In this document: one piece after another, positions 38,262 to 47,288 of the stretch
Layout of the letters: each line of letters starts with the position of its first letter
How positions within the stretch are numbered: position 1 is the first letter of the stretch
Assembly: GCF_947495275.1 (NCBI RefSeq)
Contig: NZ_CANLYL010000013.1
Span: 62,001-126,000 of the forward strand
Reading direction: 5' to 3'
Source of the DNA: an uncultured Roseobacter sp.
Lineage (GTDB): Bacteria; Pseudomonadota; Alphaproteobacteria; Rhodobacterales; Rhodobacteraceae
DNA: 64,000 bases
Made by a program: the position numbers and the translations under genes
Notes under the pieces: model-generated
The model's database searches: none
Seen by the model: the letters and a program-made list of their open reading frames with translations, nothing else
Told to the model about the DNA's origin: nothing

Positions 38262-38304
38262 CGTAAAGTAAAGTTTACACTTGCATTGTCTGTAAAATAT
38301 GACA
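38262..38304. promoter_or_regulatory. PpsR/CrtJ-like tandem operator of the puc operon
   Basis: TGT-N12-ACA at 38287-38304 matches the PpsR consensus exactly. A second site with one mismatch, CGT-N12-ACA, lies at 38262-38279. The two are 8 bases apart, the spacing PpsR/CrtJ uses for cooperative binding. The sites lie about 117-160 bases before pucB. PpsR represses photosynthesis genes in oxygen and light. The match is seen in the sequence; regulation is inferred. Confidence 0.75.
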
Positions 38305-38420: not shown

Positions 38421-38576
38421 ATGTCCGACGACCCAGACAAGGTTTGGCCAACCGGTCTAACATTGCACGAAGCCGAAGAAGTTCACAGTTATCTTATTGA
38501 TGGTACACGCGTTTTCGGTCTCATCGCGCTCATCGCCCACATGCTTGTCGCTGCCGCGACACCCTGGCTCGGCTAA
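38421..38576 (+). CDS. pucB: Light-harvesting complex 2 beta polypeptide
   Basis: A 51-residue single-helix antenna protein. The N-terminal [20 protein letters not shown] is typical of LH2 beta chains, and the bacteriochlorophyll-binding His lies in the helix segment [32 protein letters not shown] gives a strong ribosome site. With PucA it forms the peripheral antenna in the inner membrane. It is too short to be found reliably by length alone, but the family match is clear. Confidence 0.96.
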
Positions 38577-38588
38577 AGGAGGAATATC

Positions 38589-38936
38589 ATGAACAATGCA
38601 AAAATGTGGCTTGTCGTTCCCCCTGCCGTCGGCGTTCCATTGTTCCTCGGCGCAGTCGCCGTAGGTTCATTCTCGGTTCATGTTGCTGTTCTGAGCAACA
38701 CGTCCTGGGTGTCCGATTTCCTCTCCGGGGTCGAACTGGGCACAGGTGATCAACAGGCAGCCGCCGCGACACTTCCCGAAAACACGGCCAAGGCATCCTA
38801 TGCGTTGCCGATGCAAAACGGCGGACAGCAGGTTCTTGTCATCATGCCGGACGGCACCACGACAACGGCCGTTTTACAAAGCCCGGATGTGGTCAATGCA
38901 AGTGCGGCCGCGCCGCCGGCTATCATCAAGAATTAA
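38589..38936 (+). CDS. pucA: Light-harvesting complex 2 alpha polypeptide with C-terminal extension
   Basis: A 115-residue protein. The first ~48 residues are a normal LH2 alpha chain (KMWLVVPPAVGVPLFLGAVA, then the chlorophyll His in FSVHVAVLSNTSW). Usual alpha chains are about 50-60 residues; here some 65 extra residues follow, rich in Ala, Thr, Gln and Pro (ATLPENTAKASYALPMQNGG, then VLVIMPDGTTTTAVL). The extension would lie in the periplasm. A long PucA tail is also known for Rhodobacter sphaeroides puc2A, though not of the same length. AAAGGAGGAATATC precedes the ATG. Confidence 0.94.
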   Translation: MNNAKMWLVVPPAVGVPLFLGAVAVGSFSVHVAVLSNTSWVSDFLSGVELGTGDQQAAAATLPENTAKASYALPMQNGGQQVLVIMPDGTTTTAVLQSPDVVNASAAAPPAIIKN

Positions 38937-39038: not shown

Positions 39039-40496
39039 ATGTTCGACTACCGCACATTTGCCTTGCGAAAGCTGGCATCAATTGCGCCGCGCTATCTGCC
39101 CTTTACGGATGTAGCGAGCAAGGACGTGCCCCTTTCACGCCTGCTGCGATTATCTCTCTTTCAGGTCACCGTCGGCATGGCGGTGGTTCTGCTTGTCGGC
39201 ACATTGAACCGCGTCATGATCGTCGAATTGGACGTTCCTGCGACGCTCGTGGCCGTCATGCTGGCATTGCCACTGCTTTTCGCCCCGCTGCGCACAATCA
39301 TTGGATACAAATCTGATGTGCATGTATCAGCGCTTGGCTTGCGCCGCGTGCCCTACATTTGGAAAGGCACGCTGTATCAGTTTGGCGGGTTCGCCATCAT
39401 GCCTTTCGCGCTGCTTGTCCTCTCAGGATACGGTGAAGCGGTGGACGCGCCGCGGTGGATGGGCCTGTCTTCTGCCGCACTGGCATTTCTGTTGGTTGGT
39501 GCTGGCGTGCATATGGTCCAGACCGTCGGCCTGGCACTCGCAACCGATCTTGTAGACGAGCAGGATCAGCCCAAAGTTGTGGGCCTGATGTATGTGATGT
39601 TGCTCGTTGGTATGGTCGTGAGCGCGCTTGTTTTTGGTGCCTTGCTGGAGAATTACACGCCCGGCCGTCTCATTCAGGTGATCCAGGGGGCGGCGGTTGT
39701 GACCGTTGCGCTGAACCTTCTGGCTCTTTGGAAACAAGAGGCGCGAGACCGGGTACGCGCACAGAAAATGCAAACCACACAGTTCCTACCCTTCCGTGCA
39801 GCTTGGACGCAATTTGTTGAAAAGCCAGGGAAAAAGAGACTTCTGGCGGTTATTGCCCTGGGGACATTCGGTTTCGGGGCGGCGGATGTGCTGCTGGAAC
39901 CTTATGGCGGACAGGCATTGGGATTTTCTGTGGCGCAGACCACAAAATTGACTGCGATTCTGGCTGGCGGCACGTTGATCGGTTTTGGCGTCGCCTCACG
40001 CGTTTTGGGCGCGGGTCGGTCTCCCGCGCGGCTTGGTCTGATCGGCGCGATGATTGGCATTCCCGGCTTCGCAGCCATAATCCTGTCTTCGCTCGGCGGT
40101 GGCTCGTTCATGTTTTTGGTGGGCACCCTGACAACGGGTATCGGTGCGGGGCTCTTTGGTCACGCAACCCTGACGGCGACAATGCGGTCGGCGGCGCGCG
40201 ACCAGATCGGCCTTGCGCTAGGGACCTGGGGCGCGGTTCAGGCGACATCAGCCGGTCTCGGTGTGGCTCTTGCAGGCATCGTGCGCGACGTGATCGTCGC
40301 CATGTCAGCGCAGTCAGACCTTGCGGTGCACACGCCTTACAATGCGGTTTTCTTAATTGAGATTGTTTTCCTGGCGCTGGCTTGCGCTATATTGTTGCCC
40401 CTGTGCGGGGCTTGGCGCGCGGCAAATGCCCGCGCCCCTGACATAACCCAGCGGTCTGTAGCGGACCTGCATTCCAAACCGGCGGAGGCATCATGA
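39039..40496 (+). CDS. pucC: PucC, LH2 assembly membrane protein
   Basis: A 485-residue MFS-like protein of the BCH2/PucC/LhaA family with about twelve membrane helices. Family segments: LSLFQVTVGMAVVLLVGTLN, ALPLLFAPLRTIIGYKSD, RRVPYIWKGTLYQFGGFAIM and ATMRSAARDQIGLALGTWGA. It is needed for LH2 assembly or stability. Its TGA overlaps the ATG of the repeat-protein gene (ATGA), so the two are likely translated together. Confidence 0.95.
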   Translation: MFDYRTFALRKLASIAPRYLPFTDVASKDVPLSRLLRLSLFQVTVGMAVVLLVGTLNRVMIVELDVPATLVAVMLALPLLFAPLRTIIGYKSDVHVSALGLRRVPYIWKGTLYQFGGFAIMPFALLVLSGYGEAVDAPRWMGLSSAALAFLLVGAGVHMVQTVGLALATDLVDEQDQPKVVGLMYVMLLVGMVVSALVFGALLENYTPGRLIQVIQGAAVVTVALNLLALWKQEARDRVRAQKMQTTQFLPFRAAWTQFVEKPGKKRLLAVIALGTFGFGAADVLLEPYGGQALGFSVAQTTKLTAILAGGTLIGFGVASRVLGAGRSPARLGLIGAMIGIPGFAAIILSSLGGGSFMFLVGTLTTGIGAGLFGHATLTATMRSAARDQIGLALGTWGAVQATSAGLGVALAGIVRDVIVAMSAQSDLAVHTPYNAVFLIEIVFLALACAILLPLCGAWRAANARAPDITQRSVADLHSKPAEAS

Positions 40497-41539
40497 CACA
40501 AGTCATTACGCGGTACTTTGAGAGCGCGCGAAAGGCTCAACTGGTCAAACAGGCGCTGCAATTCGAGCGGTTCCCCAAAAATGACCTGGTTGTCTTTACC
40601 GATGCGACGGGTCTCTCGGATGTGTTGGCTGCGGAGCATGTCGAAGCCAAGACCGCAAAAGCTTACGAAAAACGCCTGGAATCAGGCGGGGCGGTTTTGC
40701 TGGCCAAAGCAACCTACAAGCCATTGGGTGCTGCAAGGAAAACCCGGGAGCTGACTGCCGAAATGGGCGCCGTGGATATGGGCCAGCTGATCGAAGAGGT
40801 CTATGTAAAGGACAAACCTCAGGCGGCGGCGACAATCCTGAAAGATCATCCGCATATTCTGACCCGGGACAAGGATTTGGCACCTACCGGTTACTATATG
40901 GCAGATTGGCCGATCCCACTGATCAGCCGTCGAAAACCATCCGAAGCATTCCTTTTCCCGCGTCACGCAAGGATGGCAAATTTTCCAATTCCACTGATCA
41001 GTCGCCGGAAACCCAGTGATCGCTTTGCATTTCCACGCCATGCCCGGATGGCGAAGTTCCCGATCCCGTTAATAAGCCGTCGTAAGCCATGGAGTGAGTT
41101 TGCATTTCCGCGTCACGCCCGGATGGCGAAATTCCCGATCCCTTTGATCAGTCGGCGCAAGCCTTTCAGCGGGACAATCATCGGGCGCCACACCCGCATG
41201 GCGAACTGGCCGTTCCCGCATTTGATCAACGGGAAAACAGGAACCAATGCTCTCGTGCCTGGTGGGGCGAGAATGGCAAATTTCCCAATTTCCCTCATCA
41301 GCAATCGCAAGCCGGCTGATAAGTTCGCTTTTCCGCGGCATGCACGGATGGCCGGTTTCCCGATCCCGTTGATTAGCGGGCGCAAGCCTTTTACGGGGTC
41401 GATTTTCTCGCGTCATGCGCGGATGGCCGACGCCATCCTGCCGCTGATCATCAAGCATGCGGAAGCCAAGGATGCTGAGGGTGGCGCCGGATTTTCGCTC
41501 TCAAGGCTATTTGGTCTCCCAACGCTCAGGAAGCGCTGA
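40493..41539 (+). CDS. Unrecognised tandem-repeat protein translationally coupled to pucC
   Basis: A 348-residue protein that starts inside the pucC stop codon. Residues 1-130 look like a compact alpha/beta domain, distantly like general-stress-protein 17M/YflT domains (VITRYFESARKAQLVKQALQ, LVVFTDATG, GGAVLLAKATYKPLGAARKT). Residues 136-310 are seven 25-residue repeats of the form MANFPIPLISRRKP, five variable residues, then FxFPRHAR. Residues 311-348 are a degenerate eighth copy and a tail. Most repeats carry one His and several Arg/Lys, so the array is very basic. There is no signal peptide or membrane helix. I recognise no family; it is not PucE-like by eye. Position suggests a role in LH2 assembly or membrane anchoring. 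Confidence 0.85.
   Translation: MTQVITRYFESARKAQLVKQALQFERFPKNDLVVFTDATGLSDVLAAEHVEAKTAKAYEKRLESGGAVLLAKATYKPLGAARKTRELTAEMGAVDMGQLIEEVYVKDKPQAAATILKDHPHILTRDKDLAPTGYYMADWPIPLISRRKPSEAFLFPRHARMANFPIPLISRRKPSDRFAFPRHARMAKFPIPLISRRKPWSEFAFPRHARMAKFPIPLISRRKPFSGTIIGRHTRMANWPFPHLINGKTGTNALVPGGARMANFPISLISNRKPADKFAFPRHARMAGFPIPLISGRKPFTGSIFSRHARMADAILPLIIKHAEAKDAEGGAGFSLSRLFGLPTLRKR
40898..41422 (+). repeat. Seven in-frame 75-bp coding repeats
   Basis: Units begin at 40898, 40973, 41048, 41123, 41198, 41273 and 41348, each starting ATGGC. The fifth is the most divergent. Copies encode near-identical LISRRKP segments with different synonymous codons (for example CGTCGAAAA, CGCCGGAAA, CGTCGTAAG, CGGCGCAAG), so the array is old and held by selection on protein. 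Confidence 0.95.
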
Positions 41540-44291: not shown

Positions 44292-47288
44292 TTAGTCATC
44301 CGGCTGGTCGACCGGATGCCAGCGGCCATCCTCATCTTTGACCCATTCAGGCAGCGCATTGTCTTGTCGCAATTTGACCAAAGTGGTCGGCACCCTGATT
44401 TCCCAAGGATCTCCGACAGGGATTTCACCTGATCCTTCCGGGGTGGCAAGCGGCCCGTCCCCAGTTTCGCGATTCCGTACGGCTTCCACCTCATCCAGCA
44501 TCGCTGCATATTCTTCCGAGGTGACACTGGGCTCGTCGCCACCTTCCCAAACACCGCCTGTTTCCAGGAAGTGCAGCACCGCCGCCTCATAACCCGGCGA
44601 TACTGCAAAGCGCACCAACGCAGCACCGGCACTGATGAACTCCGCATGCAGCGGATCAGTGTCTTCGTAGAGCATGCGCGCCCACGTGTCCCGCGACGTC
44701 CAAAAATAAGGGAGAAGCTCCCACTGTAACTCGTTCCACTGAATGGCCTTTTCCCAGAAGCGGGCATAAACGCCCGCGCGTTCGGCTGCGTCGAAATTGA
44801 ACTCAGCCGCCTGAGGTGAAAGATGCACGCCCGTATTGGCGAAGTGCTGGCCGGTCATCATGGCGATCGACAAACGTTTTATCTCCCGCCGTTCGATCAG
44901 GCGGTTCTGACCGGGGTTTCGACCTTCGGGCGCGGCACCTGATCGTTCGGCTTTCAGGATGGCCAGTTTCTCTTCATAGCGTCCGCGCTGCGCATCATAA
45001 CCGCGCAGCAACGCATCGTAGGTTTCAACCTGCCACTTCTCAAACGCGGCTTGTGTGTGCACGCAATGAATGGTGACAGTCGCCGAACAATTGAGCACGT
45101 TTACAGCATAGAAGGCGACAGGCACTTCGCCAGCGATTTCGGGCAAGGTATCATGCAGGTCGCTGCTGTCGGGCGATGCCGACCCCTCGGCGCGTTTCTT
45201 GAGATGCAGCGAATTCGATCCGACAGAGACATAGGCCCGTCGTGTATCGCTTGTGAAACCGTAGTGCAGGATTTTCGCGCTACAGGAGACAGCCTTGAAA
45301 CCCTCTGGCACATTGAGCAGCGCTTCGGAAGTATTGTCTTCGGCCTCGCCACTTTGGGAGGTGAAGGTGAAACTCTTGCCGATGCGCGTGGCAAAAGCGG
45401 GCGGCGGTTGAACGCCTTCCGCCTCGTAGCGCCGTACATATTTGCCGTAGTTTGTGCGGGTCAGATGCCCCGGTCCAAAGGAAGGTTTGCGGGGCGGCTT
45501 CAATCCTTCCGGCTTGCCAATCTGGTGCTCGATTGCTCGCAGTAGCAGTGCCGACGGCTCCGGCACCACGAATTCGAAAAGCACCCGCAATCCATAGTTA
45601 TAAACCTGAAGCTCATAGACACGGTCAAGCCACTGGTAGATGCCGGACAGATGTTCGGTACCTTCCGTATTGTCGAAGCCGTGTTGGTTTTTTTCTTCAA
45701 ATTCCTCGATGGTCTTACGGGTTTGTTCGCGTCGCGTTCGTAACGCCACTTTTGAAGCGGTCCGCTCGGTCACCTCTTTGGCGTAGCTTGTGGCCAGCTT
45801 GTTGATCTGTTCCTGCGATGTGCCTGTTTCATAGGCTGATGACACTTCGACCTGGACAAAGGGTCCGTATCCCGCAGACACCGACCCCCCAATGTTGAAT
45901 TGTTTGTCCTCGCGCAGGGTATTTTGAATTTCACTCTGCATTTCAAGACGTTCGGTCGTCTGGAGATCGCGTTCCTCCTCCTTTTTCTCCTCTTCTTCGA
46001 ACACGAAGGTTTCTTCGGTGCGGCGCAGGCGGCGTGTCTCGCGGTTACGGGATTCCGATTGCAGAACATTTTCTACATGGGAGATTTCGCCCGCCTCATA
46101 GCGTTTGATCTGCTGGCGCGTGACCAGAAGATCGCCCACACCGATGGGTTTGATCGGGCCAACAGTTGTTGGCGGTAGGCTTGACGGGTCAAGAATGGTT
46201 CCCATTCCGGGAAACAACGGGCTGGCCGTTCCTGCGGCAGGCATCACGGCTGATCCCGTGCGAATACGCGGCCCGGCGCCATCGGCAGCATCCGCATCGA
46301 TCAGTCGCAGAGTGGTCATCTGGTGTTCGACCTCGATACGGTCAAGCACCTCGTCATAGGGTCGCCCGGTGATGTCGACATCGAGCTCGGCCAAAAGGTC
46401 CTGGGTGTCCGACGACAAACGGCCAACCGCTGCCTGCGAGACACCAATGAACGAGATTTCGTCAGGTATATCGTCTGCCTCATCGCTGAGCCGCGCGGCG
46501 GCAGCGGTTGTTGCAGTTCGACCTGTAGTGCTTTCCCGTCCTCCCGCGCTCAATGCGTCTGGTCCGCCTGTCGCCACCCGGGCGCGACGTACCCTTTCGA
46601 TACCGGATCCGGAAAGACCGACCACCTCCGCAGCGGCCAGTTCCAGGCGTTTTGCCCGTTCTTCCAGTTTTTCTGTGGTCAGGTCCTCTTCTGGTGGCTC
46701 CGGTTCTTCCTCCAACTCGACAGGGTCTGCTGGGGGGAACAATTCGGGAGGCAGGGCAATCACCGCTTTCAGGAGCGCCGAGGAATCCTCGAAATCTATG
46801 GCATCCGGGTTCTGGTGCAGCGTCAGCAGGAGCTCTGACGCCCGCAACATATCGGACGCGCGACGGATGGGCAGAGATTCCGGAAGGACCGCAAGTTTCA
46901 GCGCGATCATTAAGTCCCGCAGAATGTCGCGTATTCGGTTGAATTCGTCGTCGCCAACGACGTCCTCAACCGGTCTGTTGAAAATTGCCAGGACCATTGC
47001 ACGCGCTGCATCAAGGGTGTCGGGTGCATCATTGTCCCAACTTTCTGCAAATCGTCTGAGGGGAAACCTGCGCTCGATATCATCAAGCTGCTGGGTCGCT
47101 GTGTTCTGGGCGATATGAGCACGCGACACGCTGCGCACGGCTTCTCGAGCTCGGGGCGAGGCGGCGGCGGCCAGAATATCCCGACTGAACGTGGTGTTCA
47201 GTTCTGCAAGGATCAACCGGTAGACAATTCGCCGCGGTCTGGGAGCGCGGCCCACGAAATAACGAAATAGCTCAATTGGGGCGACCAT
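44292..47288 (-). CDS. Large hypothetical protein (998 aa) with coiled-coil centre
   Basis: Residues 1-190 are helical. About 190-240 is acidic and proline-rich (PVELEEEPEPPEEDLTTEKL). About 385-450 is a Glu/Arg-rich coiled coil (ETFVFEEEEKKEEERDLQTT). A mixed region with GIYQWLDRVYELQVYNYG follows at about 530. The C-terminal half includes a beta-like part (TRRAYVSVGSNSLHL) and further helices. No signal peptide or membrane helix is seen. I recall similar very large cytosolic proteins with this coiled-coil/GIYxW core in other bacteria but cannot name a function. It is paired with the PhoD-like gene. Confidence 0.72.
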   Translation of the reverse strand: MVAPIELFRYFVGRAPRPRRIVYRLILAELNTTFSRDILAAAASPRAREAVRSVSRAHIAQNTATQQLDDIERRFPLRRFAESWDNDAPDTLDAARAMVLAIFNRPVEDVVGDDEFNRIRDILRDLMIALKLAVLPESLPIRRASDMLRASELLLTLHQNPDAIDFEDSSALLKAVIALPPELFPPADPVELEEEPEPPEEDLTTEKLEERAKRLELAAAEVVGLSGSGIERVRRARVATGGPDALSAGGRESTTGRTATTAAAARLSDEADDIPDEISFIGVSQAAVGRLSSDTQDLLAELDVDITGRPYDEVLDRIEVEHQMTTLRLIDADAADGAGPRIRTGSAVMPAAGTASPLFPGMGTILDPSSLPPTTVGPIKPIGVGDLLVTRQQIKRYEAGEISHVENVLQSESRNRETRRLRRTEETFVFEEEEKKEEERDLQTTERLEMQSEIQNTLREDKQFNIGGSVSAGYGPFVQVEVSSAYETGTSQEQINKLATSYAKEVTERTASKVALRTRREQTRKTIEEFEEKNQHGFDNTEGTEHLSGIYQWLDRVYELQVYNYGLRVLFEFVVPEPSALLLRAIEHQIGKPEGLKPPRKPSFGPGHLTRTNYGKYVRRYEAEGVQPPPAFATRIGKSFTFTSQSGEAEDNTSEALLNVPEGFKAVSCSAKILHYGFTSDTRRAYVSVGSNSLHLKKRAEGSASPDSSDLHDTLPEIAGEVPVAFYAVNVLNCSATVTIHCVHTQAAFEKWQVETYDALLRGYDAQRGRYEEKLAILKAERSGAAPEGRNPGQNRLIERREIKRLSIAMMTGQHFANTGVHLSPQAAEFNFDAAERAGVYARFWEKAIQWNELQWELLPYFWTSRDTWARMLYEDTDPLHAEFISAGAALVRFAVSPGYEAAVLHFLETGGVWEGGDEPSVTSEEYAAMLDEVEAVRNRETGDGPLATPEGSGEIPVGDPWEIRVPTTLVKLRQDNALPEWVKDEDGRWHPVDQPDD

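Follow-up and report, generated by a model that had tools for sequence, protein, structure and literature searches.

A protein with a head domain and a repeat array encoded behind pucC in Rhodobacteraceae as a possible belt subunit of LH2

What role could be played by a gene that starts inside the stop codon of pucC and encodes a long array of 25-residue repeats? The question is raised by a puc operon in the window, that is, the whole stretch of 64,000 nucleotides from an uncultured Roseobacter sp. that was analyzed here, and the gene is referred to below as X. We propose that its product is a peripheral belt subunit of LH2, gamma-like in its working but not classifiable as a gamma chain, a proposal that we hold to be about evenly poised between right and wrong. 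A role at the LH2 ring, which had been among the suggestions of a preliminary description of this DNA, remains the leading idea at that same middling confidence.

Genomic context of gene X

The genes of the operon lie in the order pucB-pucA-pucC-X, all on the plus strand of the window:

38287-38304, plus strand: PpsR/CrtJ-type palindrome TGT-N12-ACA, 134 bases before pucB
38421-38576, plus strand: pucB, LH2 beta chain, 51 aa; the containing frame matches Pfam LHC (E 5e-9) and GGAGG precedes the ATG
38589-38936, plus strand: pucA, encoding an LH2 alpha chain of 115 aa that reads F44-L45 and is extended far at its C terminus; Pfam LHC (E 2e-11)
39039-40496, plus strand: pucC, PUCC-family LH2 assembly protein, 485 aa; Pfam PUCC (E 5e-143)
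40493-41539, plus strand: gene X, head domain and repeat array, 348 aa; open frame with an ATGA overlap with pucC

The ATG of X (40493-40495) overlaps the TGA stop codon of pucC (40494-40496), and a GGAGG lies just upstream. This overlap, together with the Pfam matches of pucB, pucA and pucC, bears out the earlier view that X is part of the antenna operon. The source genome contains one X, three PUCC genes and two reaction-centre genes. Beyond the puc operon, a 998-residue open frame occupies 44292-47288 on the minus strand.

TGT-N12-ACA is the target of PpsR/CrtJ, and the puc operon of Dinoroseobacter shibae (Dshi_2897-2900) is regulated together with photosynthesis genes (PMC10890935). By eye, a copy of the palindrome with one mismatch (CGT...ACA) is present at 38262-38279. 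Since 14 such palindromes were seen in the window against 10.9 expected, the site ahead of pucB is not significant when taken alone. Among the fetched loci, PpsR-type sites preceded pucB in 42 of 49 upstream regions (a count without shuffle control), and in 32 of those 49 the sites were paired, mostly 25-26 bases apart.

Head domain and repeat array of X

The protein consists of a head and an array, which were delimited as follows:

40493-40897, plus strand: X head domain, residues 1-135, alpha/beta (AlphaFold; remote YflT affinity in relatives)
40898-41422, plus strand: the seven full 25-residue units, whose first residues are 136, 161, 186, 211, 236, 261 and 286 (repeat alignment)
41198-41272, plus strand: unit 5, the distinct unit, MANWPFPHLINGKTGTNALVPGGAR
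41423-41536, plus strand: degenerate eighth unit and C-terminal core GFSLSRLFGLPTLRKR (repeat alignment)

The seven repeats first counted are thus the full units, on top of which come a degenerate eighth unit (MADAILPLIIK, at residue 311) and a C-terminal FGLPTL; counted by eye, the array holds nine cores. To derive a consensus we used 113 units, namely units 1-4, 6 and 7 of 19 aligned proteins minus one unit of other length. The 19 proteins were drawn from 22 loci, leaving out L018-L021, which are partial or have other array types. The consensus reads M-A-N-[F/W]-P-I-P-L-[I/L]-S-[R/K]-R-K-P-x(5)-F-P-R-H-A-R, with Met1, Ala2, Leu8 and His23 each conserved in 99% and Pro14 in 100% of these units, a regularity beyond what chance would give, and the number of units was the same in all 19 aligned proteins of this 25-residue type. 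Unit 5 has no His in its PRHAR position but carries one at its position 8, and it is specific to its place in the array, with 84% identity between genomes. Two properties of the repeats needed adjustment. The periodic histidines hold for the 25-residue type (His23 in 99% of the 113 units), with Gly by eye in short relatives instead, and the three to five Arg/Lys residues once given for most repeats become, on a count by eye, four to six per window unit and two in unit 5.

At the DNA level the repeat copies have diverged, as a single array of 1.9 copies with 84% matches was detected. Comparison of the window X with seven relatives, against which synonymous change is near saturation, gave pN/pS values of 0.18-0.29 for the repeats versus 0.34-0.57 for the head, and the repeats were under stronger constraint than the head in all seven comparisons. 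The repeats are under purifying selection, and the low pN/pS speaks for a translated, conserved protein.

In the AlphaFold model of the head, with which the full-length model agrees, residues 1-100 are predicted to be folded (block pLDDT 84-93) in the order strand, helix, strand, two helices, strand, helix, strand, so that the alpha/beta N-terminal domain of the preliminary description reappears as a predicted fold. The array is unordered in the prediction (block pLDDT 28-47), a low confidence that is no proof of an extended chain. Inspection by eye revealed neither a signal peptide nor a membrane helix in X.

X had no match in Pfam, NCBIfam or the PDB sequence search, and the head profile retrieved two rows from PDB, both at chance level. 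Foldseek, run on the full-length model and on the isolated head, returned nothing at E 0.001; its top-ranking rows were folds of mixed alpha/beta type, from which we derived no function. Among open-licence PMC papers we found no description of an X family. Relatives beyond genomes were sought in a plasmid collection, where a plasmid of Photobacterium sp. GJ3 matched array residues 140-256 (117 residues) with 28% identity and E 2e-4, probably a chance similarity between repeats.

The remaining lead concerns the head. Heads of 8 of 45 relatives match the heat-induced stress domain YflT (PF11181) in Pfam at E up to 1 (best 5e-4), whereas a search up to E 10 gave no YflT match for the window head, which hence lies below the cut-off of Pfam. 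This likeness is made up of weak matches, and X differs from YflT in adding a repeat array and in sitting in puc operons. An antenna sensor or regulator, in which a YflT-like head would sense stress, could be read from the remote affinity in these eight relatives. Against it stand the lower conservation of the head than of the repeats, the empty structure search with the head at E 0.001, and the failure to find a DNA-binding family for X in Pfam and NCBIfam scans and for the heads of its relatives in Pfam; we judge a sensor to be very improbable.

Distribution among Rhodobacteraceae

A first scan yielded 22 genome loci, with a best-segment identity of 45-73% in 21 and of 35% in one; the X gene of L019 is partial. 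With the head profile, X was detected in 48 of 394 genomes of the family, and PUCC genes (E up to 1e-30) in 168 of the 394. Every one of the 48 X genomes carries PUCC genes and none of the 226 genomes without PUCC has X, so that in this family sample X is restricted to genomes with PUCC genes. X was present in 45 of the 54 genomes with at least three PUCC genes versus 3 of the 114 with one or two, and those three are drafts of 71-84% completeness; P values for this correlation overstate independence because the counted genomes are related. Nine X-less genomes have three PUCC genes: pucBAC is present with no X behind it in six of them, in another (G252) a pucC was shown without LH2 genes, and for G365 the copy viewed was a different PUCC gene.

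X is not confined to the neighborhood of pucC. Out of 69 X entries, 59 directly follow pucC and 37 have a 4-base overlap with it like that of the window, two entries represent one second X behind a first X, and eight (L008, L012, L014, L016, L022, L038, L039, L040) are orphans within the fetched flanks, away from pucC. Six of the eight orphan genomes (G394, G395, G396, G001, G185, G378) have a short X beside pucC elsewhere, and the other two (G397 and G398) have a puc operon without X. PpsR-type sites are located 162-199 bases upstream of three of the eight orphan genes (shuffles 0.04-0.06 each), and at L016 they are paired, 26 apart.

These patterns bear on the possibility that X is an LH2 assembly factor which works with PucC, its repeats binding nascent alpha/beta chains or passing on bacteriochlorophyll, and which leaves the finished ring. 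Coupling to pucC and co-occurrence with a third PUCC gene would both be expected of such a factor, and short forms with few units, described below, would suit a transient binder. A chaperone would not obviously need a long array of constant number, as found in 19 of 19 aligned proteins of the 25-residue type, however, and orphan X genes away from pucC are difficult to accommodate. The six X-less genomes with three PUCC genes and a pucBAC also count against it, since they indicate that PucC needs no X in general. Taken together, we consider an assembly factor rather unlikely.

Two genomes deserve separate mention. Roseobacter sp. WL0113 (L022, L136; G398) contains pucBAC, an orphan X and a single PUCC gene, and its assembly yielded no reaction-centre gene (PF00124), which suggests a lost photosynthesis cluster or a missing plasmid. 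In G126 (L042 / L064) both pucC and X are split over two reading frames, which suggests either decay or an assembly error.

Array types and relatives in other families

Three types of array were distinguished: 25-residue units, 15-residue units, and short proteins with few units. The 15-residue unit, exemplified by M-A-K-F-P-F-A-H-I-V-P-G-H-K-F (L020, L039, L040), also occurs in L021, L034 and L036 and is mixed with other units in L018. Short X proteins have about 193-233 residues and a few units of 25-26 residues (F-W-P-M-P-L-L-S), some of them too divergent to fit the search pattern. The 25-residue type has nine cores, the 15-residue type about 13-14 units, and many short forms three or four. 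These unequal numbers speak against a fixed rule of one unit per subunit, and the unit number of the 15-residue type led us to reject a general correspondence of one unit to each alpha-beta pair. At one locus (G235, L058), pucBAC is followed by two X genes in tandem, one long and one short.

Outside the family, the head profile matched 25 alphaproteobacterial genomes besides the source genome (385 genomes of the class searched), and 18 regions were fetched from 17 of them. A head-bearing protein lies beside LH2 genes in eight of these regions (L109, L110, L111, L112, L113, L114, L118, L120). Seven of the eight proteins have several units of the F-G-x-P-L-L type, and the eighth (L114) has a short tail only and is encoded on the strand opposite to pucBAC. 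LH2 genes are absent from the other ten regions, and of four proteins from such regions scanned in Pfam, three matched YflT and one DUF2382. Because the head profile scores X and non-puc proteins alike, the eight proteins were tied to X by their puc location and their repeats. At L109 and L110, X is placed between two pucBA pairs, ahead of pucC.

Comparison with the gamma ribbon of Rhodopseudomonas palustris

PucE is a 14 kDa gamma chain of LH2. PucD and PucE of Rhodobacter capsulatus resemble X in their place after pucC and were compared by position only. The operon pucBACDE is named for that species (PMC9231093).

The preliminary description knew of no described puc gene like X, yet a described counterpart in function does exist; the closest known is the gamma ribbon of Rhodopseudomonas palustris LH2. 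This chain of 97 aa, RPA1495, is extended without helix or sheet and winds round six of the nine subunits near the cytoplasmic side; the serines of its six units EYKGHSGHPLIKQEG hold six extra bacteriochlorophylls, the alpha N-terminus hydrogen-bonds its Leu95, and structures containing it are PDB 7ZCU, 7ZDI, 7ZE3 and 7ZE8 (PMC9618040). Its authors reported gamma only from Rhodopseudomonas (PMC9618040). As pucBe/pucAe are RPA1491/1492 (PMC5069747), the locus numbers alone place gamma close to a puc operon.

Gamma, which is found in LH2 rings including those of the single-band PucD type, consists, like X, of short units repeated in tandem around a P-L-[I/L] core, of which the window X shares only the short form [G/P]-x-P-L-[I/L]. 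It also resembles X in a gene near puc genes (observed for X and taken from the locus number for gamma). Leu95 of gamma, in the structure numbering, directly follows the last P-L-L, and X shares a P-L-L-type core. On the other hand, units are 16 residues long in gamma, 25 in the window X and 15-16 in some X relatives, and gamma has no head domain whereas the window X has one of 135 residues. The Ser ligand of gamma is located three residues before P in S-G-x-P-L-I, a place taken by Phe or Trp in 97% of the 113 X units, and the His23 of the window X sets it apart from a gamma with Ser ligands.

Alignment scores of X proteins against gamma covered a wide range. The repeats of L118 align with gamma in register and ungapped over 60 residues with a score of 85, reached by none of 300 shuffles and none of 1000 period-keeping permutations of gamma. 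Lower scores were obtained for L120 (56; 0/300 shuffles, 6/1000 permutations), L109 (47; 1/300 and 13/1000) and L110 (45; 2/300 and 27/1000). L112 and L113 were marginal (5 and 4/300 shuffles; 43 and 44/1000 permutations), and L111 and L114 did not rise above the control (26 and 53/300; 172 and 232/1000). The window X itself scored at chance level (25, a value reached in 127 of 200 shuffles and in 625 of 1000 permutations). L033 was the sole one of 71 Rhodobacteraceae X entries to exceed all 200 shuffles (8/1000 permutations), about what 71 tests could yield by chance. Ten non-puc control proteins scored like their own shuffles, 75 to 285 of 300 being as high.

Gamma was also searched in 17 genomes and in the 385 class genomes. 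It matched 13 of the 385 at E up to 0.1, with the X of G647 in third place (E 0.006). Puc genes were absent at seven inspected loci among the other twelve matching genomes; at one gamma-matching locus (L130) another frame matches the head profile (E 0.002). On this outcome direct similarity is weak, and the link between gamma and X is no more than suggestive. The pattern [GP]xP[LT][LIV], which was picked post hoc, occurs six times in gamma and six times in the window array (0/2000 shuffles each). L118 has four copies, and 55 of the 71 Rhodobacteraceae X entries have one or more, the other 16 having none.

What is shared between X and gamma is relevant to a further possibility, that of a membrane-surface scaffold whose basic loops would lie on acidic lipid and tether neighboring LH2 complexes, or LH2 and RC-LH1. 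Six of the seven full window units have four to six Arg/Lys by eye, and the 13-14 units of the 15-residue type exceed the subunits of one nonamer. It is the short core that recurs in gamma, however, and not the basic loop, and we regard a scaffold as quite improbable.

Proposed role as an LH2 belt

A belt like gamma is the best reading of X because the array is strongly conserved, predicted to be unordered on its own and encoded in an LH2 operon. We also count in its favor the restriction of X to PUCC genomes in the family sample, the head-bearing relatives beside LH2 genes in other families, the in-register alignment of L118 with gamma, the recurrent short core, the location of gamma by locus number, the FL or YL alphas at X-bearing loci and the PpsR-type sites ahead of three orphan genes. 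The head would be folded and the array would form a long extended ribbon without a fixed fold of its own; the predicted disorder fits a ribbon that becomes ordered only on a partner. Such a ribbon would follow the rim of the LH2 ring on its cytoplasmic side, a side that we infer from the lack of signal peptide and membrane helix by eye. Its short hydrophobic cores (F/W-P-I-P-L-I-S) would contact the ring and its basic loops would face the lipid head groups, so that X might clamp or finish the ring; both its place on the ring and the clamping are deduced by us. More speculatively, X may carry additional bacteriochlorophyll monomers and so contribute to absorption at 800 nm; His23 or Ser10 of each unit would be the candidate ligand. 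Evidence against a belt comes from the eight X genes away from pucC and from a unit number that varies by type, as well as from the chance-level score of the window X against gamma, the Phe or Trp at the place of gamma's Ser ligand, the X entries that lack the short core and the Photobacterium plasmid match.

A structure is available for a single LH2 ribbon subunit, and that subunit was described as limited to one genus. If the family were much wider, and tied as here to the LH4-like alpha chains of aerobic phototrophs, belts that clamp the ring or carry pigment would be a common part of LH2, and the unusual spectra of those antennas would have an explanation open to testing.

Antenna type of the accompanying alpha chains

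The alpha chain of the window reads F44-L45, and a review assigns F44L45 to LH4-like antennas with a single band, among them those of Roseobacter denitrificans and Dinoroseobacter shibae (PMC12654162). In Rps. palustris, the PucD-type LH2 contains gamma and has its absorption at 803 nm (PMC9618040), and PucD has F44 and M45 (figure legend in PMC9618040; PMC5069747), residues that one sentence of PMC9618040 swaps. At X-bearing loci of Rhodobacteraceae, 31 of 33 alphas have FL or YL at positions 44-45 and one has YH; the L021 alpha, missed by the pattern, reads FL by eye. Alphas at loci of the family without X have YY, YH or FY, with FL or YL in none of six. At X loci of other families, 9 of 10 alphas have FF, FL, FI or FV and one has YW. 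This association between X and alpha type is a correlation and not a test, because the sequences are related.

The belt proposal can be sharpened for Roseobacter-type bacteria with an LH4-like, single-band (about 800 nm) LH2. There X might form a nearly closed belt of nine cores round a nonameric ring, with His23 ligating at most one additional bacteriochlorophyll for each alpha-beta pair, and gamma would be a stripped-down member of a wider family. This version, which we think decidedly improbable, would if true define a new belt-and-ring class of LH2.

The idea that X tracks a long C-terminal extension of the alpha chain was dropped, as the alphas that accompany X outside the family are short in 9 of 10 cases; within Rhodobacteraceae, alphas have at least 95 aa in 31 of 33 cases at loci with X versus none of six at loci without it, where the extension is absent. 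In the window this extension (38739-38936) includes a stretch like VLVIMPDGTTTTAVLQ, and similar extensions are present in most alphas of X-bearing Rhodobacteraceae loci.
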